Shown in pieces: positions 39,776 to 61,401 of a stretch of DNA of 64,000 nt. This DNA comes from Flavobacterium hydatis (GTDB lineage Bacteria > Bacteroidota > Bacteroidia > Flavobacteriales > Flavobacteriaceae), in assembly GCF_000737695.1 (NCBI RefSeq), contig NZ_JPRM01000051.1, positions 1 to 64,000 on the forward strand, given 5' to 3'. The translations under genes and the position numbers were made by a program. The notes beneath the pieces are model-generated. The model was not told where the DNA came from and did not search any database. It saw only the letters and a list, made by a program, of their open reading frames with translations. The first letter of the stretch is position 1; every line of letters begins with the position of its first letter.

Positions 39776-42178
39776 ATGATTATGAAACAAATCTTTAAAA
39801 ATTTAATTTTATTATGTTGCGTAACAGCAATGGCACAAAATCCTCCTAGCCAAGGAGATAAAACTTTTAAAGGGGATATCAAATTAGATATTCGTGATTC
39901 AAAAGGGGATTGGCCAGCATTTCTGGAAACTAAAGCACCAAAAGACGCTCCTAATGTATTAATTATATTGTATGATGATACTGGTTTTGCAGCTTGGTCT
40001 CCTTATGGCGGTCGTATTAATATGCCAACTATGGATGCTCTTGCAAAAGATGGTATAACCTATACCCAATGGCATACTACATCTGTATGTTCGCCTACAC
40101 GTTCTACACTATTAACAGGACGAAATCACCACCAAAACGGATTCGGTTCTATATCTGAGTCTGCTGTAGGATTCCCTGGTTATAGCGGACATATTCCTAA
40201 AGAAAATGCTACTCTTGCTACCGTTCTTCGTCAGGCAGGATGGTCTACCTTCTGGATTGGAAAAAACCACAATGTTCCTGTTGATGCGCTCGATATGGCT
40301 TCCTCCAAAGATCGTTGGCCTTTGGGACTAGGTTTTGATCGTTTTTACGGTTTTATAGGTGGCGAAACAAATCAATGGTATCCAGGTTTAATAGAAGATA
40401 ATCATTTTATAGAACAGCCTTATCAGCCTGAAGATGGTTATCATTTAAGTAAAGATCTTGCAGATAAAGCAATTGCATATATTCAGGACACAAAACAGTC
40501 TAAACCCGATAAACCTTGGTTTATGTGGTATAATCCGGGAGCAAATCATGCGCCGCATCACGCACCGGCTGATTATATTGCTAAATATAAAGGCAAATTT
40601 GATGATGGATATGAGGCATATAGAGATTGGGTATTAAAGCGAATGATTGATAAAGGAATTTTACCTAAAGACACTAAACTAACTCCTATAAACCCAATGC
40701 CAAAAGGAAAATTTTCTGAAGGGGATACGGTAAGACCATGGAATACGCTCACGGCAGATGAAAAAAAATTATTCAGCCGTATGGCCGAGGTTTACGCTGC
40801 TTACTCTGAATACACCGATTTTGAGGTGGGGCGTGTAATTAAATACCTAAAAGATTCAGGACAATTTGATAATACTTTAATCATGTATTGTGCAGATAAT
40901 GGTGCATCTGGAGAGGGTTCGCCAAATGGTTCTGTAAACGAAAACAATTTCTTTAATGCTTATCCAGACGATATGAAAGTTAATTTAAGCATGATTGATA
41001 AATTAGGTTCACAAGATACCTATAATCATTATCCTACGGGTTGGGCAGTTGCTTTTTCGACTCCGTTTAAAATGTTTAAGAGATATTCTGGATATAGTGG
41101 TGGTACTGCAGATCCGCTTGTTATTTGCTGGCCAAAAGGTATTAAAGCCAAAGGAGAAATTAGAAGTCAATACCACCATTGTACTGATATTGTACCAACT
41201 ATATTAGACGTTTGTGGGGTAAAAATGCCTGATGTTGTAGATGGTGTAAAACAAACTCCGCTAGTAGGTGTTTCTATGAAATATAGCTTTGATAATGGCA
41301 AAGCTGCAACAACCAAAAAAGTGCAATATTATGAAATGGTTGGAACCAGAGGAATCTGGAAAGATGGCTGGAAAGCCACAGCAATTCACGGTGCGCTTCC
41401 GGTAAATATAGGAAACTTTGATAAAGATCAATGGGAATTATATCATGTAGATGCAGATCGATCAGAATCTACAGATCTTGCAGCAAAATACCCAGATAAG
41501 GTTAAAGAACTAGAGCAAGTATGGATGGATGAAGCTAAAAAATATAATGTTTTACCATTAAATGACGTTTCGGTAAACGAATTTCATGCAATGGAATATC
41601 ATAAAGAAATTCCTGCTGACGGTAAATTTATTTATTATCCCGGAACAACTGAAATTCCAGAAGCTTCTGCAGCACCAACGCTTGGGCGTTCTTTTAAAAT
41701 TTTGGCCGAAGTAGATTTTACAAAAAACACAAAAGGTGTTATTGTTTCACAAGGTTCCCGTTTTGGTGGTTACAGTTTATTTGTTAGCGGAGGCAAACTA
41801 AATTATGTATACAACTTTTTGGGACTGGCTCCTGAGCAAGTTTTAAGTACATCATTGCCTGCAAGCGGACAACATATTGTTGGGGTTGAATTTATAAAAG
41901 AAAAAATGACCGATAAAAATGAAACTTTAGGAACAATGAAACTTTATGTAGATGGAAAAGTGGTAGAAGAAAAACCTTTCCGTACTCAGGCAGGTCATTA
42001 TGCGCTTTCAGGCGAAGGTTTGTGTATTGGTCGCGATTCTGGTGATCCAGTGAGCAAACAATACAAAGCCAAATATGATTTTGCAGGAGGAACTATTGCC
42101 AAAGTGGTCTATGATGTAAGTAATGATGCTTATCAAAATGTAGAGCATGAGTTTAAAGTAAAAATGGCAAGAGAGTAA
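39776..42178 (+). CDS. Large secreted arylsulfatase
   Basis: 800 residues with a short signal peptide (FKNLILLCCVTAMAQ); the ATG two codons later at 39782 is equally good. The sulfatase core has D67-D68 in IILYDDTGFAAW and the formylglycine signature C105-S-P-T-R109 in SVCSPTRSTLLTGRNHHQNG, matching the long PAS-type arylsulfatase subgroup. The last ~170 residues (VSQGSRFGGYSLFVSGGKLNYVY onward) look like a concanavalin/laminin-G-type beta-sandwich accessory domain. It hydrolyses an unknown sulfate ester in the periplasm or outside. It is monocistronic with no polysaccharide locus beside it. Confidence 0.9.
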   Translation: MIMKQIFKNLILLCCVTAMAQNPPSQGDKTFKGDIKLDIRDSKGDWPAFLETKAPKDAPNVLIILYDDTGFAAWSPYGGRINMPTMDALAKDGITYTQWHTTSVCSPTRSTLLTGRNHHQNGFGSISESAVGFPGYSGHIPKENATLATVLRQAGWSTFWIGKNHNVPVDALDMASSKDRWPLGLGFDRFYGFIGGETNQWYPGLIEDNHFIEQPYQPEDGYHLSKDLADKAIAYIQDTKQSKPDKPWFMWYNPGANHAPHHAPADYIAKYKGKFDDGYEAYRDWVLKRMIDKGILPKDTKLTPINPMPKGKFSEGDTVRPWNTLTADEKKLFSRMAEVYAAYSEYTDFEVGRVIKYLKDSGQFDNTLIMYCADNGASGEGSPNGSVNENNFFNAYPDDMKVNLSMIDKLGSQDTYNHYPTGWAVAFSTPFKMFKRYSGYSGGTADPLVICWPKGIKAKGEIRSQYHHCTDIVPTILDVCGVKMPDVVDGVKQTPLVGVSMKYSFDNGKAATTKKVQYYEMVGTRGIWKDGWKATAIHGALPVNIGNFDKDQWELYHVDADRSESTDLAAKYPDKVKELEQVWMDEAKKYNVLPLNDVSVNEFHAMEYHKEIPADGKFIYYPGTTEIPEASAAPTLGRSFKILAEVDFTKNTKGVIVSQGSRFGGYSLFVSGGKLNYVYNFLGLAPEQVLSTSLPASGQHIVGVEFIKEKMTDKNETLGTMKLYVDGKVVEEKPFRTQAGHYALSGEGLCIGRDSGDPVSKQYKAKYDFAGGTIAKVVYDVSNDAYQNVEHEFKVKMARE

Positions 42179-43050: not shown

Positions 43051-44955
43051 ATGTCATACCTAAACGTCCCTCGTCTTACATTTTCTGGGCAATTTCAGGC
43101 CGATCCTTCGACTGTAAATAATGATCCCTCACATTTTAATAATGAAACATTCGAACCTGATTTTCAGGATTACAGTACGGCTGATACTCCAAACGGTTGG
43201 TGGAATCCAGATGGTACGGGCAATTGGAGATTTTTAGGTTGTAAAATTACAAGCGTTACCTATCAGGACGGAACAAGTACTGATGATTCATTATTAGATC
43301 CTGTTATTGGTATGACTATCATAGATACTAATGCACGTACAGCAGGTAAAATTGTAGATTTAGATAGTCAGCAACAAATGGTTTCTCAACTTTGGGGATT
43401 TATTGTACGAATTGTAAATAATGAGGGCGATACCCTTGTAAAAGGAGATTATGATGTAGCTGCCTTTAGCAATATTTGGTTTAACAGATCAGTTGATCAA
43501 TCAGCAGATTCAGCGGCAGGAGCAACTTATCAGTCCATTCTAAAAAATATCGAATGGAATTTTGAAATATCTAACTCAAGATATCTTAATGAGTTAAAAT
43601 CTGCCAGTGCAGATCAATTATCGATACAGTTTAATGTAGACAGATATAATGGAGATTACACCTCTCCACAATTTACCTTAGGAAGAATCACGGGTTCGAT
43701 AGGGCCTTCAAGTAACAGCGAGCCTAAGCATTTTGTGTTAGGGAGACAATTATTTCCTGCAGTACCAGGTTACAATTATGCTACTGCATTAGTAGATGAA
43801 AAATTGAATCAAGTTGTTCTTGATTTTGGTAATGCACTACAATTTTCTACAGGAGGAGTAGTAAACTCATTTGTAGATTTGCATCTAGTTATTGATACAA
43901 GTACTGCGGAAACAGTAAGTTATGTAGATATTGGGAAAATTGATTATTCAAATCCTGATTGGTATATGGGAACATCAGGAATCTTAACTTTTCCGTTGTC
44001 TGATGAGCAATTGAATCTCATTAACCAATACCCATTAGCTATTACGCAAATCCTTATTAGTCCAGACAATGTTTTTACTGTGACAAAAAATCAAACTTCA
44101 AGCGTAATTTATACAGAGTCTGTAGACTATGTGTGTGCAGATAAATTTGTATTCAGACTAGATCCTGATCAAGAGATTGACGACCCATTTGTTGTTAATT
44201 TTTACGCAACATCATTTGGGAAACCTTTGGCAAATACAGTAATTTCTATATTCCAGTCAGGTGTTAATGACAACGGCTATAAATCACATTTTAAAAATCC
44301 GCCTAGCGCCAATAACGCTCCGTTATTACCCCCATATTCATTTCAGAATTTAGCTCCAAGTCCAATAAATGGCACTCCGATAACAGCATTGGGTATTTCA
44401 GCAGACCAAAAAAATCCTTCTGCTACCCTGGCAACAGATAATAATGGATTTGTTTCCATTACTATTCCATATAGTGATCCAGGACTTGTGCGTGAATTTA
44501 AATATTATCAGTTAAATAGCGATAAAACAGAATATAACTTAATTGGTTATGACCCGCCACAGTTTATGGATGGACAATATTATAGTATTAATTATTGCTT
44601 ACAGAGTCAACTAGCAACTTTTCCAAATAACATAAATCCTTCTAATACTTTAAGTGTTCTAATTTTTAATGGACCTAAAACGCTTTCGGGAATTCAACCA
44701 GATTGGGAAAGCTTTATACAGCCTATCATGCAGCAATACGCCAATTTGTATCCGTTGATGTCCAAAGGAATTTTTAATCTGGCTGATAAAGCGGTGTTTG
44801 AAAATAACGCACAAATATTGCATTTAGTTTTTAGCAAAGATCCCGAAGATCCAAATTATATGCCTGCTACAAGAGATCTTTCTAAATATAAAAAGACGGT
44901 TATCTTAAACTACTTACAAGGTATTATTGATAATGGAACTGGAACTAAAGCATAG
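43051..44955 (+). CDS. VioB/RebD N-terminal-like protein (split chromopyrrolate-type synthase half)
   Basis: 634 residues, no signal peptide. The start MSYLNVPRLTFSGQFQADPS has the form of the VioB start (short motif with a proline-arginine pair, then F-G and a T-NxDP region). Near the C terminus LYPLMSKGIFNLADKA (about 563-580) and YMPATRDLS (about 603-611) resemble, in kind and spacing, the VioB stretch just before its ferritin-like domain, as I remember that sequence. VioB and RebD are about 1000-residue heme enzymes that couple two indole-3-pyruvate imines. This gene and the next sum to 983 residues, as if that enzyme were split in two. It is the first gene of the cluster. The homology is well supported by eye; the substrate is not. 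Confidence 0.8.
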   Translation: MSYLNVPRLTFSGQFQADPSTVNNDPSHFNNETFEPDFQDYSTADTPNGWWNPDGTGNWRFLGCKITSVTYQDGTSTDDSLLDPVIGMTIIDTNARTAGKIVDLDSQQQMVSQLWGFIVRIVNNEGDTLVKGDYDVAAFSNIWFNRSVDQSADSAAGATYQSILKNIEWNFEISNSRYLNELKSASADQLSIQFNVDRYNGDYTSPQFTLGRITGSIGPSSNSEPKHFVLGRQLFPAVPGYNYATALVDEKLNQVVLDFGNALQFSTGGVVNSFVDLHLVIDTSTAETVSYVDIGKIDYSNPDWYMGTSGILTFPLSDEQLNLINQYPLAITQILISPDNVFTVTKNQTSSVIYTESVDYVCADKFVFRLDPDQEIDDPFVVNFYATSFGKPLANTVISIFQSGVNDNGYKSHFKNPPSANNAPLLPPYSFQNLAPSPINGTPITALGISADQKNPSATLATDNNGFVSITIPYSDPGLVREFKYYQLNSDKTEYNLIGYDPPQFMDGQYYSINYCLQSQLATFPNNINPSNTLSVLIFNGPKTLSGIQPDWESFIQPIMQQYANLYPLMSKGIFNLADKAVFENNAQILHLVFSKDPEDPNYMPATRDLSKYKKTVILNYLQGIIDNGTGTKA

Positions 44956-44979
44956 TACTCATAAAATAAAAATCTAATT

Positions 44980-46029
44980 ATGATATTCTTAAAAACAATA
45001 AAAATAGAAACTCTTGCGGATCTTAAAGTGGCACTGCAAAATGCCATTGAATTAGAACATGCAACAATCCCTCCTTATCTAACGGCAAAATTTACACTTT
45101 TTGAAACGGGTAACGACCAGATAGCAAATTTAATAAGTTCTGTAGTTGGCGAAGAAATGTTACACATGTCAATAGCCTGTAATATATTAAATGCAATAGG
45201 AGGTAGTCCAGTTATTAATAAACCTGGTTTTATACCAACATATCCCGGACCATTACCAGGTTCTGTGGTAGATGGGCTACAGGTGCCAATTAAAAAATTC
45301 ACATTAGAACTTGTTAATGAGGTTTTTATGGCAATTGAAGAGCCTGAGAAACCAATTGATATTCATAATCGTATGGCAGTTTCTGATGTAATTACTATTG
45401 GAGTGTTTTATACTAGAATAAAGGAAATAATAAGTGAACTTGAAGCTGCTGCAAAAGCAGAAGGAAAGACAATATTTGTTGGAAATCCGAATTATCAAAT
45501 GACTTTTGAAAATTTTTATGATGCTTCTTTATTATTTCCAATTGTCGATGAAGAAACAGCTATACGAGGTATAGACATCATTATTGATCAGGGAGAAGGA
45601 ACAACAACAAATCCATTTGTAACTTCTGCAGATGATGGGAATGTTACTGAACTAGCACACTATTATCGTTTTGAAGAAATTTATAAAGGTAAAACAATAC
45701 AGCAAGATCCTACAGGAGGGTATATGTTTGGTGAACCTCTAATTCCTTTTAATCCGAAATTAGTACCTAATATGTGGCCAAATCCTAAAATGGACGATTA
45801 TCCAAAGGATTCTCAAGCATACATTAATAGCAAGTTTTTTAATTACAACTATACTTCATTACTTAATAGTTTACACGAAACATTTAATGGCGAACCAGAG
45901 AAAATTAATACTGCAATGGGGCTAATGTTCTCTTTGCGATTATATGCTATTAAGTTGTTGGCGATTCCAGATCCTAATCATCCGGGTTTTGTAGCTGGTC
46001 CTAGTTATGAATATGTTGTTGGAGAGTAA
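44980..46029 (+). CDS. Ferritin-like iminophenylpyruvate-dimer-synthase-type protein
   Basis: 349 residues. Carboxylate-bridge motifs are visible: E26-H27 in NAIELEHATIPPYL and E59-x-x-H62 in GEEMLHMSI, with a second EE pair in YYRFEEIYKGK. This is the domain found as the C-terminal part of VioB/RebD and as a stand-alone ferritin-like family named after iminophenylpyruvate dimer synthase. Directly after the VioB-N-like gene (24 bp) it probably forms a two-subunit counterpart of VioB. No amino-acid oxidase (VioA/RebO type) is in the window, so the source of the imine is unknown. Confidence 0.82.
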   Translation: MIFLKTIKIETLADLKVALQNAIELEHATIPPYLTAKFTLFETGNDQIANLISSVVGEEMLHMSIACNILNAIGGSPVINKPGFIPTYPGPLPGSVVDGLQVPIKKFTLELVNEVFMAIEEPEKPIDIHNRMAVSDVITIGVFYTRIKEIISELEAAAKAEGKTIFVGNPNYQMTFENFYDASLLFPIVDEETAIRGIDIIIDQGEGTTTNPFVTSADDGNVTELAHYYRFEEIYKGKTIQQDPTGGYMFGEPLIPFNPKLVPNMWPNPKMDDYPKDSQAYINSKFFNYNYTSLLNSLHETFNGEPEKINTAMGLMFSLRLYAIKLLAIPDPNHPGFVAGPSYEYVVGE

Positions 46030-46059: not shown

Positions 46060-46497
46060 ATGAAATTCAAGTCAAAAGCAGTAGTTATTAAATTATCAGT
46101 GAGTGATATTCTTGTGTCTCAAAAGTTTTATGAAGAAGTTCTGGCATTTAAGGTTGATGATAAATACACTCTTAATTCCGATGGAAATTATGGTATGGAG
46201 TCTTTTATACAATTGTATCTAAATCATAAAACCGAAAATGGTTTTATGCTTGGATTATATAAAGATATTGACTCGCCATTTTATCCATTGCCAGAAACGG
46301 GAACCGTACCAACTTTTATTGTAGATGATATACAGGCAACACTCGTTTATTTTAAATCCCAGAATGTAGTAATTGATGTAATAGATGGCGCAGAGATTAT
46401 CTCTAATATTTCAAACAAAGGATATGTAGATCAGTTTTTCTTTTTTAGAGATCCAGATAACAATTCTTTGGTTATTCGAGAGAACATCTTAAAGTAA
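46060..46497 (+). CDS. VOC family protein in the VioB-like/ebo cluster
   Basis: 145 residues of the vicinal oxygen chelate fold: KAVVIKLSVSDILVSQKFYEEVLAFKV at the N terminus and FFFRDPDNNSLVIRENI at the C terminus (DPDxN element). The substrate is unknown. It lies 30 bp after the ferritin-like gene and 37 bp before eboA. This suggests it works on the product of the dimerising pair, for example as a cyclase, isomerase or product-binding protein; that is inference from position. Confidence 0.8.
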   Translation: MKFKSKAVVIKLSVSDILVSQKFYEEVLAFKVDDKYTLNSDGNYGMESFIQLYLNHKTENGFMLGLYKDIDSPFYPLPETGTVPTFIVDDIQATLVYFKSQNVVIDVIDGAEIISNISNKGYVDQFFFFRDPDNNSLVIRENILK

Positions 46498-46534: not shown

Positions 46535-47398
46535 ATGATAGCAACACCAACCAAAACAGATTCTGGAGAACTAATAAAAGAAATAATTCAGAGCAAACTT
46601 TCGGGATCTGAATTAGATTGGTTTAGAGGAAATATCATTTTTGAAAATTCCGCACAGTTTTTTCAAGTGTTTGGATTAATCTCTAGAAATATCTCTCCCG
46701 TTATTCCAGAATGGACTGAACAGGAAAAGGTACAACTAGAAGAATTATATCCTGGTTTTACACAGAGCAATTGGGATTTGCAACAGCTTTGTCGCTGTTT
46801 GTTAATGGTTCATTTACCAGTAGAGCAAAATGTTGAGATAATAAAAAATTTGGCCGAAATGGCCGCTATAAAAGAGCTTGTTTGTTTGTATAAAGGATTG
46901 TATTTCTTAAAGAATGCTCCCGATTTTGTCTTAATGGTTCAGGAAGGAATCAGAACAAATATGGTTGCCGTTTTTGATGCAATTGCATTAGCAAATCCAT
47001 TTCCTGCAAAATATTTGCCTACAGATCCTTGGAATCAATTGGTTTTAAAAGCCGTTTTTATGGGACGACCGTTGTATCAAATCATTGATTTAGACTTGCG
47101 TAAAAATGAAAAATTAGCCTTAATAGTTCATGATTACATTCACGAGCGTTGGTCGGCAGGCAGATTAGTAACACCCGAAATATGGAGATTAGTTGATGGT
47201 TATGTAAATCAGGAAATAGCTGCCGATTTGCTAAATGCTTTACAAACTGGGGATACATTAACCAAACAAGCGGCTATAAAAGTTTTAAAAGAAAGCTCGT
47301 TTTACAAAGAGAGCGAAATTCCTAATGAAGTACTATTAGAAAGTGCTATTACATGGAATGAAATAGGAACAAAATATTATTCACAATTAAAATCTTAG
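46535..47398 (+). CDS. eboA: EboA-like protein
   Basis: 287 residues, soluble, mostly helical. The EboA-type helical repeats include LQQLCRCLLMVHLPVEQNVEIIKNLAEMAAIKELVCLYKGLYFL, a pattern like HEAT repeats, and RTNMVAVFDAIALANPFPAKY. EboA is the first member of the conserved ebo cluster and has no known enzyme activity. The name rests on its sequence character plus exact position directly before eboB-eboF. A 3-bp gap to eboB indicates cotranscription and probably coupled translation. Confidence 0.82.
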   Translation: MIATPTKTDSGELIKEIIQSKLSGSELDWFRGNIIFENSAQFFQVFGLISRNISPVIPEWTEQEKVQLEELYPGFTQSNWDLQQLCRCLLMVHLPVEQNVEIIKNLAEMAAIKELVCLYKGLYFLKNAPDFVLMVQEGIRTNMVAVFDAIALANPFPAKYLPTDPWNQLVLKAVFMGRPLYQIIDLDLRKNEKLALIVHDYIHERWSAGRLVTPEIWRLVDGYVNQEIAADLLNALQTGDTLTKQAAIKVLKESSFYKESEIPNEVLLESAITWNEIGTKYYSQLKS

Positions 47399-47401
47399 TA
47401 T

Positions 47402-48310
47402 ATGTATTATATAGATCCACATATTCATATGGTATCCAGAACGACTGATGATTACCAAGCTATGCGTGCTGCAGGTATTGTAGCCGTTATAGAACCCGCT
47501 TTTTGGTTAGGACAAGCTAGAACAGAAGCTTCTTCATTCAAAGATTATTTTAGCACTTTGGTAGGTTGGGAAAGATTTAGAGCCTCACAATTCGGGATTA
47601 AGCATTATTGTACCATAGGTTTAAACTCTAAAGAAGCAAACAACGAAGCTCTTGCAGAAAAAGTAATGCACTTATTGCCATTATTTGCTGCCAAAGAAGG
47701 AGTTGTTGCTATTGGAGAGATTGGTTATGATGATCAAACTCCAGCTGAGGATAAATATTTTAGGTTACAGATTGAGCTGGCACTAAAATTTAATTTACCA
47801 GTAATGGTTCATACGCCACACCGAGATAAAAAGAACGGAACTATTAGAAGCATGGATGTGTTAGAAGAACACGGTATTGCGCCTCATATGGTAGTTATAG
47901 ATCATAATAATGAAGAAACCGCTAAACAAGTTCTGGATAGAGGATATTGGGCAGCTTTTACCATTTATCCTAATACAAAAATGGGAAATGAACGCATGGT
48001 TGAGGTTGTAAAACAATATGGTTCCGACCGTATTATTGTAGATAGTTCTGCCGATTGGGGTGTAAGTGATCCTTTATCAGTTCCTAAAACAGCAGCTTTA
48101 ATGCTCGAAAGAGGAATTGCCAAAGAAGATGTGCATTTAACCTGTTACAAAAATGCCCTTACAGCTTATGGGCAAAGCGGGCAAATGCATGAAGATGACT
48201 GGAAAAACGAAATGGTTATTACCCAAGACACCTTATTTGAAGGAAGTAGCGTGCTAAGAGGACAAGAAGCCCAAGAAATAGTATATCCTAATATTATTAT
48301 AGAAAACTAA
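47402..48310 (+). CDS. eboB: EboB-like TatD-family metal hydrolase
   Basis: 302 residues with the TatD amidohydrolase metal ligands in order: H7-x-H9 in YIDPHIHMV, Glu in AIGEIGYDD, His in PVMVHTPHRDKK, His in MVVIDHNNEET and Asp in IIVDSSADWG. It is a cytosolic TIM-barrel phosphoesterase or nuclease-like hydrolase of unknown natural substrate. It follows eboA by 3 bp and its stop codon directly abuts the start of eboC. Confidence 0.85.
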   Translation: MYYIDPHIHMVSRTTDDYQAMRAAGIVAVIEPAFWLGQARTEASSFKDYFSTLVGWERFRASQFGIKHYCTIGLNSKEANNEALAEKVMHLLPLFAAKEGVVAIGEIGYDDQTPAEDKYFRLQIELALKFNLPVMVHTPHRDKKNGTIRSMDVLEEHGIAPHMVVIDHNNEETAKQVLDRGYWAAFTIYPNTKMGNERMVEVVKQYGSDRIIVDSSADWGVSDPLSVPKTAALMLERGIAKEDVHLTCYKNALTAYGQSGQMHEDDWKNEMVITQDTLFEGSSVLRGQEAQEIVYPNIIIEN

Positions 48311-49207
48311 ATGTCTAGTAAATTATTTTATTTATTAACCTTATTGCGTCCCGCAAATATTGTTACAGCCGTGACAGATATTCTTGCGGGTATCGCTATT
48401 TCGGGAGTTTTAATTTTTTATAGTGACAATAATAATTTTATAATTAATGCATTATTGCTAATAACATCAACTATAGGTTTATACGGTGGCGGAATTGTAT
48501 TTAATGATATTTTCGATTTAAAATCAGATGCTATTAACCGCCCAGAAAGAATACTTCCGCGTGGATTAGTTAGCAAAAAAGAAGCTGTTTTTCTTGGATG
48601 CCTAATGTTACTTATGGGAGTTGGACTAGCTTTTATAGTATCAGTTCTTAGCGGAATTTTAGCTTTTATCATTAGTCTTCTCGCACTTAGTTATGATAAG
48701 ATAAGCAAACATTACCCAGTTATAGGCCCATTAAATATGGGACTTTGTCGGGGAGGGAATTTGCTTTTAGGAATGAGTATTAGTAATGATGCCGTTTATA
48801 ATTATTGGTACATTGGTATAATTCCTATTTTATTTATTGCAGCCATCACGCTTACTGCCAAAAAAGAAGCATCTGGTAATAATAAAGGATCTATACTTTT
48901 TGCCTTATTTCTAGATGCTATAGTTGTAGCACTATTTATTTATATAGGACAGTTACTCGGTTTTAGATTTTTGATCTTATTACCGTTTCTTCTTTTTTGG
49001 TACGGAATTAATTTTATTGCAAAATATAAAGCTTTCATTTATAACCAACCAGTTAATATACAAAAAGCTGTAAAAACAGGAGTACTATCTTTAATTCCGC
49101 TAAATGCCAGTTATGTAGCAGGCTCAGCAGGATTGGTTTATGCGCTATTTGTTCTGGCATTATTGCCATTGTCTATTTTATTATCCAAAAAATTTGCCGT
49201 TACCTGA
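48311..49207 (+). CDS. eboC: EboC-like UbiA-family prenyltransferase
   Basis: 298 residues with about eight or nine membrane segments. The UbiA aspartate motif is clear: NDIFDLKSDAINRPERILPRG (NDxxDxxxD, which binds Mg-prenyl diphosphate). A second conserved region, SYDKISKHYPVIGPLNMGLCRG, follows. UbiA enzymes attach isoprenoid chains to aromatic acceptors in the membrane, so with the VioB-like pair a prenylated aromatic product is conceivable. The ATG immediately follows the eboB stop. There is a 16-bp gap to eboD. Confidence 0.85.
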   Translation: MSSKLFYLLTLLRPANIVTAVTDILAGIAISGVLIFYSDNNNFIINALLLITSTIGLYGGGIVFNDIFDLKSDAINRPERILPRGLVSKKEAVFLGCLMLLMGVGLAFIVSVLSGILAFIISLLALSYDKISKHYPVIGPLNMGLCRGGNLLLGMSISNDAVYNYWYIGIIPILFIAAITLTAKKEASGNNKGSILFALFLDAIVVALFIYIGQLLGFRFLILLPFLLFWYGINFIAKYKAFIYNQPVNIQKAVKTGVLSLIPLNASYVAGSAGLVYALFVLALLPLSILLSKKFAVT

Positions 49208-49223
49208 ATATAAATTCCATAAA

Positions 49224-50396
49224 ATGAAACATCAACATATACTTCAGCAAAATTTTCAAGTCACATTTAATTATGACATCATATTTAGTCGTTCCTTATT
49301 TGAAGTAAACAATACATCACTTATCGATGTGATTAAAAAAGAACCAGGTTTTCAGCAACCCAAAGTAACAATAGTAATAGATAATGGAGTTGTAGATGCT
49401 ACAAGCCAGTTTATAACAAAAGTTATTCGGTATTTTAATGAGCATCAATTTGCTATTACCGAAGCTAATATACTTGTAGTACAAGGAGGAGAGGACGTAA
49501 AAAACAGCTCAGAATACATTGAAGCTGTATTAGAATTAATAAATAATAACAAAATAGACAGACATTCTTTTCTTATCGCAATAGGAGGAGGAGCAGTGCT
49601 AGATGCTGTAGGTTATGCTGCTGCAATTGCACATCGTGGCGTGCGCCTTATCAGAATACCTACAACTGTTTTATCGCAAAATGATTCGGGTGTAGGCGTA
49701 AAGAATAGCATGAATTATTTTGGTAAAAAGAACTTTCTGGGCACATTTGCTCCACCATACGCTGTACTTAATGATTCTGATTTTTTAACCACTTTAAGCG
49801 AGCGTAATTGGCGATCCGGAATATCCGAAGCTATAAAAGTGGCACTTATTAAAGACGCTTCTTTTTTTGATTGGATAGAAAACAATACACAAGCCCTCAA
49901 TAACAGGGATGTTTCGGTAATGGAAACACTTATTATCCGTTGTGCCGCTTTGCATACCGATCATATTTCTAAAAAAGGAGATCCATTTGAGAAAGGTTCA
50001 TCACGTCCGTTAGACTTTGGACATTGGGCAGCGCACAAAATGGAGCAACTTACTAATTACGAAATTACCCACGGAGAAGCCGTTGCAATAGGTATTGCTC
50101 TAGATGTTGCCTATTCTTATTTATCAAATAAAATAGATAAACCGAGTTTGGATCGAATCTTAAAATGTTTCTTAATCCTTGGCTTTGCCATAAATCACCC
50201 TATTCTTGACACTCATTTTGATGAGGTTATAAAAGGATTAGATGAGTTTAGAGAACACTTGGGAGGTCAGCTTACAATTATGTTATTAAGTGATATTGGT
50301 ACAGGAGAAGAAGTACATGCACTTGATAACAATCTAATTGCTGAATCTGTTCAATATCTGTATTCGTTTTGCCAATTAAATACCGAAGTATGCTAA
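49224..50396 (+). CDS. eboD: EboD-like sugar-phosphate cyclase (3-dehydroquinate synthase family)
   Basis: 390 residues from the ATG at 49224; the frame is open upstream to 49140 inside eboC. The 3-dehydroquinate synthase fold is clear: VIDNGVVDAT, GGGAVLDAVGYAAAIAHRGVRLIRIPTTVLSQNDSGVGVKN (NAD and phosphate binding), and zinc-site regions SGISEAIK, FGHWAAHKME and THGEAVAIG. The family makes cyclitols such as dehydroquinate or valiolone-type compounds. A second copy besides AroB in a biosynthetic setting points to secondary metabolism. Its end overlaps the eboE start by 7 bp. Confidence 0.87.
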   Translation: MKHQHILQQNFQVTFNYDIIFSRSLFEVNNTSLIDVIKKEPGFQQPKVTIVIDNGVVDATSQFITKVIRYFNEHQFAITEANILVVQGGEDVKNSSEYIEAVLELINNNKIDRHSFLIAIGGGAVLDAVGYAAAIAHRGVRLIRIPTTVLSQNDSGVGVKNSMNYFGKKNFLGTFAPPYAVLNDSDFLTTLSERNWRSGISEAIKVALIKDASFFDWIENNTQALNNRDVSVMETLIIRCAALHTDHISKKGDPFEKGSSRPLDFGHWAAHKMEQLTNYEITHGEAVAIGIALDVAYSYLSNKIDKPSLDRILKCFLILGFAINHPILDTHFDEVIKGLDEFREHLGGQLTIMLLSDIGTGEEVHALDNNLIAESVQYLYSFCQLNTEVC

Positions 50397-51637
50397 TTAG
50401 TACAAATGGTCATTTAAGCTATTGTACCAACATTCATGCAGGTGAATCTTGGGAAGCTGTTTTTAATAGCATCAAGACCTATTGTGTTCCTCTCAAAAAG
50501 AAAGTTTCACCAGATATGCCATTTGGTATAGGTTTACGTCTTTCATATCAAGCAGCAACTGAATTGGTATTAGATGACAATCTATCCCTTTTTAAAGATT
50601 GGTTAGCACAAAATGAAATGTATGTATTTACCATGAATGGTTTTCCGTATGGAAATTTTCATAATGAGCCAGTTAAAGATAAAGTTCATTTGCCTGATTG
50701 GACAAGTAGCGAAAGATTAAATTATACACAATTACTTTTTACCATTTTAGGACAACTTTTACCTTCAGGGATAGAAGGAGGGATTTCGACCTCACCACTT
50801 TCGTATAAACATTGGTATAAAACTGAAGCAGATTTAATTCAGGCCAAGCAAGTTGCTACAAAACAATTAATAACAGTCGTTACACAGTTAGTAGAATTTT
50901 ATGAAGCCAAAGGTATAATGATGCATCTGGATATAGAACCAGAACCTGATGGTATTATTGAAAACGGTGATGAATATATTGCCTTTTTTGAAGACTATTT
51001 ACTTAAAGAAGGCGCTTTATTATTAGCAATAAACCTTTCTTGCACTGTATCTCAGGCACAAGAATACATACGAAATCATATACAGCTTTGTTATGATGTT
51101 TGTCATTTTGCCATTGGGTTTGAAGAAAGTGAAGACGTAATTAAGAAAATGGAAAAGCATGGTTTAAAGATTGGAAAATTGCAAATTAGCGCAGCTCTAA
51201 AATGTACCGCTTCTGCAAATGTACCAATTGACGAATTGCAAAAATGCCTACATACTTTTGATGAACCTACGTATTTGCATCAGGCTGTAATTAAAACTAC
51301 AAATGATGAGTTACTAAAATTTAATGATTTAAAAAACGGAATAGAAGCCATGAAACGGGACGACTTTAAGGAGCTTCGCACGCATTTTCATGTCCCTATA
51401 TTTATAGAAGATTACCAACTATTACAATCTACACAAAATGATATCGTAAATGTTTTGGAAAATTGGCGTAAAACAGCATTTACCAAACATCTAGAGGTTG
51501 AGACTTATACGTGGCAAGTACTGCCAACTCATTTACAAACAGACTTAGAAAAATCTATCGAGAGAGAATTAAATTGGGTTATAAACAGAGTAACCAATAA
51601 TATAAAAGAGCCAGTTATACACCTAAGCTTACTTTAA
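50390..51637 (+). CDS. eboE: EboE-like TIM-barrel protein (metabolite traffic)
   Basis: 415 residues from the ATG at 50390, which overlaps the last codons of eboD (ATGCTAATTAG, where TAA ends eboD). It has the xylose-isomerase/AP-endonuclease-like barrel pattern: NGHLSYCTNIHAGESWEAV at the start, FTMNGFPYGNFHN, MMHLDIEPEPDG (acidic metal site), LCYDVCHFAIGFEE and LKIGKLQISAAL. The activity of EboE is not established. Start-stop overlap with eboD implies translational coupling. Confidence 0.85.
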   Translation: MLISTNGHLSYCTNIHAGESWEAVFNSIKTYCVPLKKKVSPDMPFGIGLRLSYQAATELVLDDNLSLFKDWLAQNEMYVFTMNGFPYGNFHNEPVKDKVHLPDWTSSERLNYTQLLFTILGQLLPSGIEGGISTSPLSYKHWYKTEADLIQAKQVATKQLITVVTQLVEFYEAKGIMMHLDIEPEPDGIIENGDEYIAFFEDYLLKEGALLLAINLSCTVSQAQEYIRNHIQLCYDVCHFAIGFEESEDVIKKMEKHGLKIGKLQISAALKCTASANVPIDELQKCLHTFDEPTYLHQAVIKTTNDELLKFNDLKNGIEAMKRDDFKELRTHFHVPIFIEDYQLLQSTQNDIVNVLENWRKTAFTKHLEVETYTWQVLPTHLQTDLEKSIERELNWVINRVTNNIKEPVIHLSLL

Positions 51638-51653
51638 ATACAAATACAAAACA

Positions 51654-53024
51654 ATGCAACAAACAGTCGTTATAAATGTGGTAGGGCTTACGACTACTTT
51701 ACTCGAGGATTCAGAACTTTTTTTGCACCAATGGTTTAAAAAAAATAATCATTTAAGCATTATAGAACCTGTACTTCCTGCTCTTACTTGCTCGGCTCAA
51801 ACTACTTATTTAACCGGAAAATGGCCTTCTGAACACGGAATCGTCGGCAATGGATGGTATGATAGAACTGATGCCGAAGTAAAAATGTGGAAACAATCAA
51901 ATAGACTAATACAGACTCCAAAAATATGGGATTTAGCACGAAAGATAGATCCAGCATTTACTTGCGCCAATATGTTTTGGTGGTACAATATGTATTCAGA
52001 TGCTAATTATACAGTAACACCACGTCCGCAATATTGGGCAGATGGACAGAAAAAACCAGATTGCTACTCCAAACCAGCCAATTTAAGAGATCGTTTGCAA
52101 GAGAGATTGGGAACATTTCCATTATTTGACTTTTGGGGACCAAAAACAACCATACGTTCCAGCCAATGGATTGCCGATGCATCAAAGTTGGTTTACGAAT
52201 GGTATAAACCCACGCTTACATTAATTTATTTGCCTCATTTAGATTATTGCTGTCAAAAATATGCTCCAAAATCGCCAGAAATAATCAAAGATGTAAAAGC
52301 TATAGATAAAGTATGCAAAGATTTAATTGAATTTTACGAAAGTAATGGAGTAGAAGTTATTGTTTTATCCGAGTATGGTATCACCAAGGTTACAAACCCT
52401 ATTCATATCAATAAATTTTTACGCTCTAATGGATATTTACAAATACGAGTTGAGCGAGGATTAGAATTATTAGACGCTGGAGAGTGCAGAGCTTTTGCAC
52501 TAGCAGATCATCAGATAGCGCATATATATGTAAAAGATAAAAATGATCTCCAAGAGCTTAAAGAATTATTCGAAAAGATTGCTGGAGTAGCTAAAGTTTT
52601 AGATGATGAAGGGAAAAAAGCACATCATCTTAATCATGAGCGTTCGGGTGATCTTGTACTTATTGCAAATCAAGACAGTTGGTTTACCTATTACTATTGG
52701 TTGGATGATAGTGATGCACCTGATTTTGCGCGTACTGTAGAAATTCATAAAAAAACAGGTTATGATCCCGTAGAACTTTTTCTTGATCCTAAAAAGAAGT
52801 TCATTTTGCCTCGAATCATTTTTAAATTAATTCGAAAAAAACTTGGCTTTCGTACCCTTATGAATGTGATTCCGCTTGACGCGACATTAGTTAAAGGCTC
52901 TCATGGATGCATTCCTGAAAGTGATGCCGATAAACCCGTATTTATAAGTAAAAATGGTAAATTAGATAAAATAGAAAGCAATACGGTTTGCCAATATATA
53001 CTCGATACTATCTTTAAAAATTAA
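51654..53024 (+). CDS. eboF: EboF-like alkaline phosphatase superfamily protein
   Basis: 456 residues, no signal peptide. The nucleotide-pyrophosphatase branch pattern is present: PALTCSAQTTYLTGKWPSEHGIVGNGWYD (nucleophile Thr region), LIYLPHLDYCCQKYAPKSPE (metal Asp/His) and VIVLSEYGIT. The N-terminal strand reads VINVVGLTTTLL, without the usual Asp that follows this strand as a first metal ligand, so the metal site may be altered. It is the last gene of the cluster, 16 bp after eboE, and is followed by a terminator. Confidence 0.83.
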   Translation: MQQTVVINVVGLTTTLLEDSELFLHQWFKKNNHLSIIEPVLPALTCSAQTTYLTGKWPSEHGIVGNGWYDRTDAEVKMWKQSNRLIQTPKIWDLARKIDPAFTCANMFWWYNMYSDANYTVTPRPQYWADGQKKPDCYSKPANLRDRLQERLGTFPLFDFWGPKTTIRSSQWIADASKLVYEWYKPTLTLIYLPHLDYCCQKYAPKSPEIIKDVKAIDKVCKDLIEFYESNGVEVIVLSEYGITKVTNPIHINKFLRSNGYLQIRVERGLELLDAGECRAFALADHQIAHIYVKDKNDLQELKELFEKIAGVAKVLDDEGKKAHHLNHERSGDLVLIANQDSWFTYYYWLDDSDAPDFARTVEIHKKTGYDPVELFLDPKKKFILPRIIFKLIRKKLGFRTLMNVIPLDATLVKGSHGCIPESDADKPVFISKNGKLDKIESNTVCQYILDTIFKN

Positions 53025-53533: not shown

Positions 53534-55999
53534 TTAATTGTGAGAGTCAATTAACACTTCTTCTTTAATCCATTTTACTTCTTCGTTTTCGATTACGACA
53601 ATCATTTTATCTCCATCTTTTACTTCACCCGAAATTATTTTCTTGGCCAATGGTCTTCTTAAATGACTGCGAATAATGCTCTTGATAGGTCTTGCACCAT
53701 ATTTAGCATTATATCCATTTTCTGCCAAATGTAGTTTAGCTTCCATCGGGATTTCAACAGTTATATTGATGTTTTTTAGTAAATCCATGAACTCTTTTTT
53801 AAGATGGATTTCAAATATTTTTAATGCATTTTCTTTGCTAATAGGAGCAAAAGGAACAATTTCAGTTAATCGCCCTAAAAACTCAGGTCTGAAATAATTC
53901 CCCATAATTTCCATTAAGGAAGTTGAAGTTGGAATTTTACCACTATTAAAAGTTTCTACAATATGATCTGCACCAATGTTTGAAGTAAAAAGGATAATAG
54001 CATTAGAGAAATCCCCTTCTTTACCTAAACGATCATGAAGCTTTCCTTCGTCCATAATTTGCAAGAATACATCATAAACAGAAGTATGTGCTTTCTCGAT
54101 CTCATCAAATAATACGATAGAATATGGTTTTTGTCTTATCTTGTTCACCAATAATCCACCTTCTTCATAACCTACATATCCCGGAGGTGCTCCATAAAGT
54201 AATGCTGCCGAATGCTCTTCTTTAAATTCAGACATATCAAAGCGTATAATAGCATTTTCATCCTGAAAAAGGAATTCTGCTAAACTCTTTGCTAGTTCTG
54301 TTTTTCCTGTTCCTGTTGGCCCTAAAAAGAAGAATGATGCAATAGGTTGTCCTGCTTTACTTAAGCCTGATCTTGATTCTAAAATAGATCCTGCAACAGT
54401 AGCAATACAATGATCCTGACCAATTACTCTTCGGCCTAAAACCTCTTCAATATTGTTTAGTTTCTGTTTTTCTTCCTCTTTTAGTTTTCCTGCAGGAATG
54501 CCTGTTTTTTGAGCAATAATAAGCGATAAATCAAAAGCTTCAATATGTACACGTTTGTCTAAAGCTCTTTCTTCAATAGCACTTATCAGGCTTTCGATAT
54601 GATTGATGATAGACTCAGAAGTTTCAAATGTTTTATTGTCATTTTGCTCCTCAACAACCATTAAAAATGTTGTTTTATTGATTAAATCTATCAGAAACCA
54701 ATTCGCTTCTTTTATTAATTGTTCTTCAGATAAACCAGCTTCATTTTGTTTTAAAAGCTGTAATTTATCCAGAATAGATTGTTTTTCTTTAAGGAAAGTT
54801 TCACCAGAAGTTTTTAAAACCGACATGGTATGGTCGATAAGATTAATTGCTGATTCTGGAAGACTTTTTTCTTTTAAATATCTTTTAGATAGGCGAATAG
54901 ACTCTGTAATAGTCTCATCATCGATTTGTATTTTATGATGTTCCTGATATGTTTTAATCGACTCGCGAATCATTCGGAACAAAGTATCATCATCAGATTC
55001 TTCAAGTTTTACAATCTCAAACATACCCGATAAACCTTGTTCTTTCTCAATTCGTTTGGTGTATTCATCGATTGTAGATGTTGCAATAATGTTTAATCCT
55101 TTGGCTAATTCACCTTTTAAAACATTAGATACGCCTGAATCTCCACCGTTTTTATCTAGTAGAATATGAATTTCTTCGATAATAAGAATTGCTTTAGGAT
55201 ACTGTCTTAGTTCCTGAATACAATTTTTTAATCTGTCTTCGATTTCACCTTTATAAGAAGCTCCGGCAATTAGGGAAGATAAATCTAGTTCAAAAAGTTG
55301 TACTTTATTTAAAACATCCGGAACCTGATTTGCAATTACATTTTGAACGAGAGTATCAATTAAAATTGATTTTCCAATACCTCGATCACCAATCAATAAT
55401 ACATTGGGTTTAGAAAATCTGCAAAGAATTTCTTTAATCGTATTTAGTTCAGTTTCACGACCAATAGCGACTATTCTCTTTTTCTTTTTTTCAAGATTTT
55501 TATGGATGCAATATTTCCCCAAAAAGCCTTTTTTAACTTCCTGTTTTGCAACGTTTAGTTCCTGAGGTATGTTAGTTTGGTCTTCTAGTAGTTCGTTTCG
55601 AGAAATAGGATATGTTTTCATCTGGTCGAAATTAAATCCTACTCCAGGTGAGCTTAACGCTACTATAATAGCATAAAGACTAATTTCGTCTTCATTTAAT
55701 ATGGATCTTACCGATTCGGCTTCCTTGATGATTTCATCAATTACATCGCTCGGTTCTGCATTAAGAACTTGACTTGTTTTTGGTTCATCTTCCATTCGAA
55801 CTTCTGCCCATTCGTCAAGATAATAAACATCTTTTCCCATTGTTTCAAGTTGCTTCAAAAGAGATAAATCTCTGTTTAAAATAGCTTTTAATAAATGGGC
55901 TGCCGAGTAGTATTTGTTTGAATTGGTTTTAGCAATTTTTCTTGCTATTTCAAATGCACTTAGTAATTCTACGCTGAAAATGTTTTTTTCTTCTTCCAT
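53534..55999 (-). CDS. tssH: TssH/ClpV-type AAA+ ATPase of type VI secretion (subtype iii)
   Basis: 821 residues in the ClpB/ClpV layout. An N-terminal Clp repeat-like domain (~1-150) is followed by AAA-1 (~175-370) with Walker A GDRGIGKS (203-210) and Walker B-like ILIIEE (271-276). A helical middle region (~400-480) follows, then AAA-2 (~510-740) with Walker A GPTGTGKT (560-567) and VLFDEIEKAH, and a C-terminal D2-small domain. It is assigned to sheath disassembly in type VI secretion rather than general disaggregation because the neighbours are TssG-, TssN- and PAAR-like. The gene is 6 bp downstream of the PKD-protein gene in the same operon. Confidence 0.85.
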   Translation of the reverse strand: MEEEKNIFSVELLSAFEIARKIAKTNSNKYYSAAHLLKAILNRDLSLLKQLETMGKDVYYLDEWAEVRMEDEPKTSQVLNAEPSDVIDEIIKEAESVRSILNEDEISLYAIIVALSSPGVGFNFDQMKTYPISRNELLEDQTNIPQELNVAKQEVKKGFLGKYCIHKNLEKKKKRIVAIGRETELNTIKEILCRFSKPNVLLIGDRGIGKSILIDTLVQNVIANQVPDVLNKVQLFELDLSSLIAGASYKGEIEDRLKNCIQELRQYPKAILIIEEIHILLDKNGGDSGVSNVLKGELAKGLNIIATSTIDEYTKRIEKEQGLSGMFEIVKLEESDDDTLFRMIRESIKTYQEHHKIQIDDETITESIRLSKRYLKEKSLPESAINLIDHTMSVLKTSGETFLKEKQSILDKLQLLKQNEAGLSEEQLIKEANWFLIDLINKTTFLMVVEEQNDNKTFETSESIINHIESLISAIEERALDKRVHIEAFDLSLIIAQKTGIPAGKLKEEEKQKLNNIEEVLGRRVIGQDHCIATVAGSILESRSGLSKAGQPIASFFFLGPTGTGKTELAKSLAEFLFQDENAIIRFDMSEFKEEHSAALLYGAPPGYVGYEEGGLLVNKIRQKPYSIVLFDEIEKAHTSVYDVFLQIMDEGKLHDRLGKEGDFSNAIILFTSNIGADHIVETFNSGKIPTSTSLMEIMGNYFRPEFLGRLTEIVPFAPISKENALKIFEIHLKKEFMDLLKNINITVEIPMEAKLHLAENGYNAKYGARPIKSIIRSHLRRPLAKKIISGEVKDGDKMIVVIENEEVKWIKEEVLIDSHN

Positions 56000-56005
56000 A
56001 CTATT

Positions 56006-57061
56006 TTAATCTTTAGTCCAGATCAAGTATTTTTTTACTTTATAGCTAATATTTAATCCTTTAATGCAATTATTTTGTTTGTCTTTGTTTAATCGTATTG
56101 ATTCTATCTTTATTTTTTTGCCTTTAATAGCTGCACATAATTGTGAAAAAGTCAACAAATCTTTATCATTTTTTACAATCGGAATGTCTAAATCATCGCA
56201 TAAGTATTCAGAAAAATCATCTTTGACTTTACTTCCTTCGGCAACTTTAGTTAGTAAGATTTCGAACTGATCTTCGGATATTTTAGGTGCTTTTTTTACT
56301 GCGGCAACACTATCTTTTTGTGTTTTAGTTTTTGGAGCAACTGGCACATATTGTAGCATATCTTCCAGAGGGTCTTTTTTAACAGAACCTCTTGGTAATG
56401 AGAAAGCTTCTGCCTTTTTTTCATACACATAAGACGTTATATCCAGCGGATTTGTTTTCTTAATTACTCTGGTATGTACATAGATCGTTTTTTTGGCAAC
56501 AGTACTAAAATCTCCATTTATAATAAGCGTAATTGTTTTCTCACCTGGAGTTGAGAAAGTGTATACAGGATTTTCTGAAGTTTCGTCAATTCCTCTTCTA
56601 TTTTCCCCAAATGACCATTCCCATGTTTTTGCATCATCAGATACGGATCTAAAATAGGTAGGTTGTCCTGCGGTGATTATTTTTGGGACAATAATTTGTG
56701 GTGCTCCAAATTTATCTGCAGCATATTTATCCTTAATTACGAGTTCTCGAGTATGGGTACAATCCCCATTTATGGTTAATGTAATTTTATATTTTCCAGG
56801 TTTTTTATACACGTGAAAAGTATGTCTTCTTACATCTAATAAAGACCCATCTCCAAAATCCCATTCCCATGTTTTTGCATTATGTGTTCGGTCATAAAAC
56901 TCAATGGATTCCTCGCTTTGCGAGTGGTCAGAGAAAATATAGAACTTAACATCTTCGCAATCTACATGGTTGAAAAACTGTATTATAAATGCAACTATTC
57001 CTATCAATAATAAAACTGCAAAGAAGAATATAACCCTAATATCGATGTTTTTTTTATTCAT
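56006..57061 (-). CDS. Membrane-anchored PKD-domain protein of the type VI locus
   Basis: 351 residues. One membrane segment near the N terminus (about 8-28, VIFFFAVLLLIGIVAFII), then two PKD domains (about 35-112 and 118-198; KTWEWDFGDGS and KTWEWSFGENR are the paired hallmarks). A charged linker of about 60 residues and a small C-terminal domain of about 80 residues follow. It probably sits in the inner membrane with PKD domains in the periplasm. Subtype iii systems lack TssJLM and use other membrane proteins (TssN-TssR group); this may be one, but I cannot assign which. A good promoter lies just upstream. Confidence 0.7.
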   Translation of the reverse strand: MNKKNIDIRVIFFFAVLLLIGIVAFIIQFFNHVDCEDVKFYIFSDHSQSEESIEFYDRTHNAKTWEWDFGDGSLLDVRRHTFHVYKKPGKYKITLTINGDCTHTRELVIKDKYAADKFGAPQIIVPKIITAGQPTYFRSVSDDAKTWEWSFGENRRGIDETSENPVYTFSTPGEKTITLIINGDFSTVAKKTIYVHTRVIKKTNPLDITSYVYEKKAEAFSLPRGSVKKDPLEDMLQYVPVAPKTKTQKDSVAAVKKAPKISEDQFEILLTKVAEGSKVKDDFSEYLCDDLDIPIVKNDKDLLTFSQLCAAIKGKKIKIESIRLNKDKQNNCIKGLNISYKVKKYLIWTKD

Positions 57062-57114
57062 TTTTTATTTTTAAGAATTCACAAAAGTCAGAATATATTT
57101 TATAAAGTTGCTCG

Positions 57115-57146
57115 CAAAAATAGTTTTTATTATTTTAAGATTCCAA
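57115..57146 (-). promoter_or_regulatory. Promoter of the PKD-protein/tssH operon
   Basis: The minus strand has TTG (57146-57144), 21 bp, then TATTTTTG (57122-57115). Both elements of the flavobacterial consensus are present. The implied leader is about 45 nt before the ATG at 57061. Confidence 0.6.
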
Positions 57147-57252
57147 AAATTATTACTATAAAATTTACAAAAAATAATTTGTATTCTTACATAATAATTT
57201 ATTAGGTTTGCAACCGTGTGTTTATGAACATAAAAAAAATCATAATAAAAAG

Positions 57253-57373
57253 TGCCAGGCTAACAAATACCACAGCAGTTAGTATTTTGGCAAACTAAAA
57301 ATGAATCATAATTTCATTTTTAGTCATTGTAGATTTAATTAGAAAAAAGTAAAATACCTTAAAGTGGTATTTT
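57253..57373. repeat. Three consecutive stem-loops in the divergent type VI region
   Basis: (a) TGCCA/TGGCA arms (57253-57257, 57288-57292) enclosing AATAC/GTATT. (b) A perfect 11-bp stem, CTAAAAATGAA (57295-57305) with TTCATTTTTAG (57313-57323). (c) A perfect 8-bp stem, AAAATACC (57351-57358) with GGTATTTT (57366-57373). None has a clear terminator T run at the right place. Confidence 0.55.
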
Positions 57374-57638
57374 TAAAACTTTTTCAGCTTGTTTTCTATT
57401 CGATAGCGATATAGATTGCAGCTTTAAAATTTCAGAATAATTTTAGATTTATAAAGTTTGAAAATGTCGCACATCTTATGGAATGGGCATTTTTAAGAAA
57501 GATTACAATAAAAAACATAATTAGTTAGTAAATACCACATCAACTAGCTTTTGTAATTAACATAGATTTCAATAATTGAAAATCTACAGCCGTTGGTTTT
57601 TTTAAACTGAGGCAAAATAATATTTGATATTTTTTTTA

Positions 57639-58280
57639 ATGAAGCAAGTAATTTTATTAATACTAGCAATGTTGCTACAAGCAGAATGCAGGAGTCAGAG
57701 TTATATTTCTCAGATTCCCTTTAAATATGATTATTCCTTGGATTTGTTGAAAAAACAATCTCACATGGAAGAAGTCGGTTTGAAGAATAAAGTAGTTGTA
57801 AATGATAATTCGGAAAATTTAAGCGATGCTATTTTAGCTTTAAAAGAAAAGTATTCGATAGTTCTTGCTGTAACTCCTAATAAGATAACGAATTATAGTT
57901 TGTATTCTTATATAGATACTTGGATTAATACGCCATACAAGGAAAAAAGCTTTTCGAAAAAAGGAATCGATTGCTCTTATTTCTTGCAATCATTGTATAG
58001 TGATGTTTATAAAGTAACGCTTCCTAAAGATCCTGCTGGAATGTGGAAATCTAAATCAATCCAGATTTTTACAGGACGAAGTTTTTTGGCAGAAGGAGAT
58101 TTAGTTTTTTTTAGATACGACAAAGATCATCCTATCTCTGATGTTGGTTTATACCTTCATAACGATAGGATTTTGGCATGTACAGATAAAGGATTGGCGA
58201 TTTATAATTTCAATGACGACTATTTTCAATTGCGCTATATAGGAGCAGGAAGAATCAATGAAGATGCAAAGAAGAAATAA
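57639..58280 (+). CDS. NlpC/P60-like exported protein of the type VI locus
   Basis: 213 residues from the ATG at 57639, with an N-terminal signal (KQVILLILAMLLQAEC, possible lipobox Cys). The C-terminal half has the NlpC/P60 papain-like pattern: KKGIDCSYFLQSLYSDVY (catalytic Cys), LPKDPAGMWKSK, LAEGDLVFFRYDKD. At the usual catalytic His position the sequence reads SDVGLYLHND, with Asp where the common S-H-V-G-I-Y motif has His. It is either inactive, or uses a shifted His. It is probably periplasmic and may open peptidoglycan for the secretion apparatus. It overlaps the next gene by 23 bp. Confidence 0.75.
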   Translation: MKQVILLILAMLLQAECRSQSYISQIPFKYDYSLDLLKKQSHMEEVGLKNKVVVNDNSENLSDAILALKEKYSIVLAVTPNKITNYSLYSYIDTWINTPYKEKSFSKKGIDCSYFLQSLYSDVYKVTLPKDPAGMWKSKSIQIFTGRSFLAEGDLVFFRYDKDHPISDVGLYLHNDRILACTDKGLAIYNFNDDYFQLRYIGAGRINEDAKKK

Positions 58281-59208: not shown

Positions 59209-59210
59209 AA

Positions 59211-60197: not shown

Positions 60198-60233
60198 GGT
60201 TACAGAATAAATTTTAAAATTAGCTAAGATACA

Positions 60234-61313: not shown

Positions 61314-61401
61314 AAAAAAATAGAATAATTGATTTGAGTAAGATTTATAAAAAAGAAAACGGAATCAACAAGGATATTTAATATCCAAAAAAGGTAAAGC
61401 C

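Follow-up and report, generated by a model that had tools for sequence, protein, structure and literature searches.

A two-gene relative of VioB and its association with ebo genes in Flavobacterium hydatis

A pair of adjacent genes in Flavobacterium hydatis raises the question of whether an enzyme of the VioB type can be encoded in two pieces and, if so, what such a pair does. The genes lie in a 64,000-nt stretch of DNA (hereafter the window), which comprises positions 1 to 64,000 of contig NZ_JPRM01000051.1 (assembly GCF_000737695.1, genome size 5.88 Mb). The first gene, P1 (43051..44955, forward strand), codes for a VioB N-terminal-like protein of 634 aa, and the second, P2 (44980..46029, forward strand), for a ferritin-like protein of 349 aa with a PF12902 domain; both are ORFs with an ATG start. 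Near the end of P1, codons 44860..44883 (forward strand) specify MPATRDLS (residues 604-611), whose counterpart in VioB is MPSTRELS. The codons of six candidate di-metal ligands in P2 span 45055..45660 on the same strand. An initial annotation of this DNA had described the two ORFs as a VioB-type enzyme divided by natural fission, and their coordinates, lengths, ATG starts, motifs and 24-bp gap were all as it gave them.

Both genes are intact and co-directional. They share a reading frame and are separated by two stop codons alone, TAG and TAA, the second of which lies in the gap (44956..44979, forward strand), which made it necessary to consider read-through in frame or a nonsense mutation; a fused gene cut by stop codons, or an assembly error, would have this appearance. 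However, relatives exist in which the two ORFs occupy other relative frames, with gaps of 11 bp (L017) and 23 bp (L020) or an overlap of 20 bp (L018), and in-frame pairs make up 6 of 18 in the P1 clade, which equals the chance expectation. In comparison with four Flavobacterium relatives (4 of the 17 other members of the P1 clade), dN/dS was about 0.14-0.25 (P1) and 0.07-0.17 (P2), which indicates that purifying selection acts on both proteins. In addition, all eight plasmid-borne relatives are annotated with two separate genes. An origin by read-through or nonsense mutation is thus unlikely in view of the frames, the chance-level in-frame share and the low dN/dS, and a broken gene or assembly error is extremely improbable. 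A frameshift, against which the initial annotation had already argued, and a nonsense-split gene were ruled out by the same frames and dN/dS values.

We then compared the two proteins with VioB. P1 matched the NCBIfam VioB model (TIGR04492, cut-off 1250) over residues 551-625 only (E 5.9e-9, 34.3 bits) and P2 scored 10.1 bits, also below this cut-off; four canonical VioBs (L096-L099), taken from genomes in which relatives of the P1-P2 pair also occur, scored 1701-1856 bits. Profile alignments with hhalign extended the similarity to both halves. A 61-row P1-type profile aligned from 1-628 with VioB 1-588 (probability 98.7, E 3.6e-16), and a 52-row P2-type profile aligned from 7-342 with VioB 600-939 (probability 98.7, E 2e-16). 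A reversed VioB, used as a control, gave probabilities of 0.4 and 0.1 with the P1-type and P2-type profiles, respectively, and the two profiles matched each other with a probability of 0.4. HMMs of both halves built without VioB also matched a 997-aa VioB (56 and 31 bits). These alignments place the break between P1 and P2 at a domain boundary of VioB, between residues 588 and 600, where the initial annotation had located the junction of the VioB-like and ferritin-like parts. The identification of the pair as a VioB relative is therefore well supported by sequence comparison. The two halves are collinear with VioB and share with it all six di-metal ligands and the MPxTR(D/E)LS motif. In contrast to VioB, which is a single chain of about 1000 residues, the pair consists of two genes; identity in the profile alignments is 21% (P1) and 24% (P2), the C-terminal ~65 residues of VioB have no aligned counterpart in the pair, the CxC motif of VioB is missing from P1, and violacein genes were not found in the genome of the pair.

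The candidate ligands of P2 are strongly conserved. E26, E59 and H62, which had been proposed from the sequence, as well as E120, E206 and H227, are 98-100% identical in 52 rows and are present in 4/4 VioBs, where they correspond to E619, E679, H682, E735, E813 and H826 (L096 numbering). It may be inferred that these six residues bind metal. In P1, 36 columns, including M604 and R608, are invariant in 75 P1-type rows; at 21 of them (M604, R608, Y567 and M570 among these) the residue is shared by three or more of the four VioBs, and the MPATRDLS motif is kept in all four. No His or Cys of P1 was invariant across the P1-type rows. C64 is conserved in 95% of 61 rows, the four VioBs having Val or Ala at this position. 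H28 is not invariant; it is conserved as His in 77% of rows, and 4/4 VioBs have His there. H28 is a possible candidate for a heme ligand in P1.

Structural models were examined for both proteins. The P1 model (75 rows) was of high confidence (pLDDT 86.5, pTM 0.88) and consisted of beta domains followed by a helical end that carries the shared motif. No whole-length fold match for P1 was present among the 50 PDB rows listed by Foldseek (query TM-scores 0.07-0.14), and the VIA rows listed in a fold search reached Z-scores of up to 6.3, mostly for single beta domains. A likeness of P1 residues ~1-221 to the PyrI4/PloI4 Diels-Alderase barrel was too weak to pursue (Z 4.3), and so was the same likeness in the joined-chain model (Z 8.8 but rmsd 4.7). 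P2 matched PF12902 over the full model (227.4 bits, gathering cut-off 22.3). Within the joined-chain model it resembled in fold the Caulobacter ferritin-like protein CC_0557 (PDB 3hl1, PF12902; Z 26.7, rmsd 2.6, 262 residues), to which it is also similar in sequence (E 7.8e-12); P2, for its part, lies directly 3' of a VioB-N-like gene. The joined P1-P2 model itself had a pTM of 0.58, so that its domain arrangement is unsure and gives no basis for a claim about an interface. A sequence search of the PDB copy gave no VioB, and a 2021 review describes a structure of VioB as not available (PMC9705886).

Does the pair, then, carry out the reaction of VioB? RebD/StaD chromopyrrolic acid synthases are VioB relatives of similar length. 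Lysates containing RebO and RebD have been used to obtain chromopyrrolic acid from tryptophan (PMC10784701). VioB is described as an oxidase that depends on heme, has catalase activity and couples indolepyruvate imine (PMC9705886, PMC5577590). With this description, the homology over almost the full length and the shared His at the position of H28, a violacein- or indolocarbazole-type function proper, i.e., VioB/RebD-like dimerization of a tryptophan imine by a heme enzyme, might be considered. However, the scores fall short of the equivalog cut-off, P1 has no invariant His or Cys, and VioA and VioE gave no match in the F. hydatis genome at E 0.001 with one query each (these queries exceed their NCBIfam cut-offs, and both find themselves in G396), and a violacein pathway was accordingly rejected. 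Moreover, in four genomes an ebo-linked split pair occurs alongside a canonical VioB that passes the cut-off. Canonical VioB and the pair are thus separate systems, and we regard VioB/RebD function proper as quite improbable. The designation "VioB-type enzyme" in the initial annotation therefore stands as far as both halves are collinear homologs of VioB, but not as an assignment to VioB itself, whose family cut-off was missed and whose partners VioA and VioE were not matched. Because P1 has no established heme ligand, the interface is hypothetical and VioA and VioE gave no match, we refer to the pair as a VioB relative and not as VioB. The genomes in which VioB (L096-L099) and an ebo-linked pair occur together (L078, L080, L084 and L091) include Chromobacterium, Pseudoduganella and Massilia.

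To see how the two forms are distributed, we scanned one genome per species (84,980 species) with patterns drawn from five relatives, which biases the outcome toward close kin. The scan yielded 111 relatives, of which the best 80 were kept and 31 weaker ones left out; the tallies rest on 79 loci from these 80. Judged by the best P1-type ORF, 62 of the 79 loci were split, 13 were fused in one ORF and four had no called partner ORF. Among the latter, the P1-type gene of L032 is itself broken, with a P2-type gene behind it, L071 and L092 are at contig ends, and L081 has no P2-type gene in the locus. A further natural fusion of both domains, beyond these 13, is found in L012. By record titles, the 79 relatives span nine phyla, with MAGs included. 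On plasmids, 8 of 72,556 records matched, and all eight pairs are split and annotated as "hypothetical protein" followed by "ferritin-like protein". A P1-type match was present in 5 of 395 genomes of Bacteroidia and in 8 of 398 of the genus Flavobacterium, the own genome being counted in both cases; two of the five Bacteroidia matches (G210 and G369) have no adjoining ferritin-like gene. The nearest relatives of P1 are from Flavobacterium. The distribution of the pair is patchy, yet the two-gene form is widespread in bacteria, and two genes are the usual coding of this VioB relative among the relatives examined. The pair is also conserved as a unit: evolutionary distances of P1 and P2 were correlated over 69 split pairs (r 0.90, a value to which shared genome ancestry contributes), and none of 999 permutations gave a correlation as high. 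Five loci (L044, L072, L078, L080 and L093) contain two successive P1-P2-type pairs.

Natural fission, as originally proposed for this locus, was not demonstrated, since the split arrangement is the common one among the relatives examined, the fused relatives, VioB excepted, group in a single clade in each of three trees (P1, P2 and concatenated), and either direction of change is compatible with the AU test. A fission private to the window is excluded, because the split form is common to its relatives. An old fission of a fused VioB-like ancestor, common to many relatives, may be suggested by the fused state of VioB itself and by the short P1 tail that the P1 clade and the fused clade both have after the motif. 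In 18/18 of the P1 clade this tail measures 20-34 residues to the gene end, as against 55-87 residues in all but one of the 44 other split relatives whose motif is recognizable. In an AU test a single clade of all split rows was not rejected (p-AU 0.123), and the P2 tree (93 rows) places the split forms all on one side of a branch, which has no support. However, the fused clade is nested within split forms in the P1 tree (91 rows, omitting L032, L071, L092 and P1-type stretches under 450 residues; SH-aLRT 80-85), and the concatenated tree (85 rows, omitting also L073, L079 and rows lacking a P2-type partner) agrees, with support along the path of 87, 45 and 75. The split form is also far commoner than the fused one. 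A single old fission is thus conceivable, with the balance tilting slightly against it; a later fusion of the two genes is the alternative.

P1 heads a run of nine co-directional genes on the forward strand that ends at 53024, has no gap longer than 37 bp and consists of P1, P2, a VOC gene and eboA-F. The VOC (glyoxalase-superfamily) protein (46060..46497, 145 aa) matched PF00903 with 23.5 bits (cut-off 20.6). It is followed by eboA (46535..47398), which passes the cut-off for the EboA domain (NF035938, 143 bits, cut-off 50) but misses that of the stricter EboA family (NF035937, 174 bits, cut-off 320). The genes eboB (TatD-like hydrolase, 47402..48310; PF01026, 71 bits), eboD (3-dehydroquinate-synthase-like, 49140..50396; PF01761, 119 bits, and PF24621, 112 bits) and eboF (phosphodiesterase/pyrophosphatase, 51654..53024; PF01663, 226 bits) were called from general Pfam families together with gene position; the true start of eboD probably lies downstream of 49140. 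The UbiA-like prenyltransferase gene eboC (48311..49207; NF035940, 335 bits, cut-off 250) and the TIM barrel gene eboE (50369..51637, start uncertain; NF035939, 481.5 bits, cut-off 250) complete the set. The ebo cluster known from cyanobacteria and other bacteria is present here behind the pair, with its six genes in the order eboA to eboF. This cluster is found in many bacteria and some algal plastids, and its cargo is mostly unknown outside scytonemin (PMC6282210). The ebo genes of the window adjoin the ferritin-like P2, whereas the word "ferritin" is absent from the main text of three ebo papers (PMC6282210, PMC5133447, PMC9235831). Among the matches listed in our literature searches, we recognized no paper on the pair or its link to ebo.

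The linkage between the pair and ebo is recurrent. At least three ebo genes were present in the fetched stretch of 23 of the 79 scan loci (19 split and 4 fused; L013, which came from a separate search, is outside this count) and fewer than three in the other 56, some of which stop at contig ends. Bacteroidota, Burkholderiales, Chromobacterium, Azospirillum, Nitrospirillum and a cyanobacterium are among the ebo-linked organisms, and at 4 of the 8 plasmid loci the records annotate the complete set of six ebo genes next to the pair. EboE had one match in each of 15/15 ebo-linked genomes tested. The ebo genes follow the pair in Flavobacterium, precede it in Cupriavidus and flank it on both sides in Undibacterium and Azospirillum, and 11 changes of the ebo label were counted on an 81-row tree, a number that is possibly inflated as loci cut by contig ends were scored as lacking ebo. 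In view of these varied arrangements and label changes, the association has probably been re-formed. Conversely, 20 of 22 Bacteroidia genomes with EboE lacked P1- and P2-type genes in the DNA fetched around ebo, the two with the pair nearby being the window and L013. Thus, the pair is an optional partner of ebo, which does not need it.

Other genes also lie near the pair. A VOC gene was located within 3 kb in 31 of the 79 loci; 10 of the loci have an ABM domain. In Algoriphagus (L030:11691-13214) one 507-aa protein combines a P2-type part with a VOC domain, and this fusion ties the third gene of the run in the window to the pair. A LodA-type oxidase with a flavoprotein partner was found near 3 of the 79 relatives (L059, L061 and L094), and in two Mycetohabitans plasmids with similar records (L164, and L182 by annotation) a LodA-type oxidase and ebo are near the pair. 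PF12902 ferritin-like genes adjoin fungal lodA genes in a 2015 survey (PMC4417212). These LodA-type neighbors, together with the fungal survey, would favor an oxidized amino acid or other aromatic compound as the substrate. A LodA-type protein was rejected as a local amino-acid oxidase, since the own genome has no match.

Considering these data, we think it moderately likely that the pair forms a two-subunit, probably di-iron, VioB-related oxidative enzyme that makes or modifies an aromatic metabolite handled by Ebo. P1 and P2 would be the two subunits of one enzyme related to VioB (iminophenylpyruvate dimer synthase). In such an enzyme the ferritin-like di-metal, probably di-iron, center of P2 might activate O2 or peroxide, and P1, a beta-domain chain with a small helical end carrying MPxTR(D/E)LS, might bind the aromatic substrate and close over P2. 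The reaction of the two chains would be an oxidation, perhaps a coupling, of a compound that is aromatic or derived from an amino acid, and its product would then be processed and moved by Ebo proteins A-F, whose genes are co-directional with the pair, in this presumed order. This reading builds on the demonstrated homology and collinearity with VioB, the conserved ligand set, the conservation of the pair as a unit and its recurrent linkage to ebo. Against it count the 56 loci with fewer than three ebo genes, the Bacteroidia ebo clusters that lack the pair, the missing VioA, VioE and LodA matches in the own genome, the lack of a whole-length fold match for P1 among the rows listed and the unsure domain arrangement of the joined-chain model. 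It could be argued instead that the two proteins share an operon but never form one enzyme, with P2 acting on its own as a ferritin-like oxidoreductase and P1 serving separately in binding or as a scaffold. PF12902 proteins do occur without a P1-like partner, as in the second copy of the own genome, which is accompanied by a GMC oxidoreductase; P1-like proteins occur without a ferritin-like neighbor in L014, L015 and L081, and the pTM of the joined-chain model points in the same direction. However, the adjacency is repeated and its order constant, natural fusions unite both parts in a single chain, the distances of P1 and P2 are correlated, and the two proteins are collinear with single-chain VioB. 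Separate roles are therefore rather unlikely, and a two-subunit enzyme is preferred.

If P1 and P2 are such an enzyme, its linkage to ebo would offer a handle for finding the cargo of Ebo, and the natural split, which separates the halves of VioB, would supply smaller proteins with which to ask whether this chemistry uses a di-metal center, heme or both. More tentatively, one may suppose that an unnamed, widespread two-subunit di-iron enzyme is a recurrent metabolite-making partner of Ebo and that VioB, although treated as a heme enzyme, uses the same buried ferritin-like di-metal site for imine coupling, as the conserved ligand set would imply; this broader proposal is possible, though doubtful at present.

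Several additional observations were made. In the two Mycetohabitans records (L164:2498-5559 and L182:2498-5559), which are megaplasmids, a LodA/GoxA-type CTQ oxidase and a tryptophan-halogenase-like flavoprotein are located upstream of the pair and ebo. The second PF12902 protein of the F. hydatis genome (L016:8302-12285; contig C29, about 56.3-60.3 kb) adjoins an ABM protein, the GMC oxidoreductase and a 151-aa protein in a stretch from which a P1-type gene is absent, and a related GMC protein and small protein are found near the lone P1-type gene of another Bacteroidia genome (L015). In the window, a large sulfatase-family protein (PF00884) is encoded upstream of the pair on the same strand (39776-42178). 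The region 53534-61896 encodes a ClpB/ClpV-like ATPase and neighbors that, by reading alone, resemble a contractile secretion cluster of Bacteroidota or a type VI-like one. Kinase-like and two-component-like neighbors, also recognized by reading, were taken as background.
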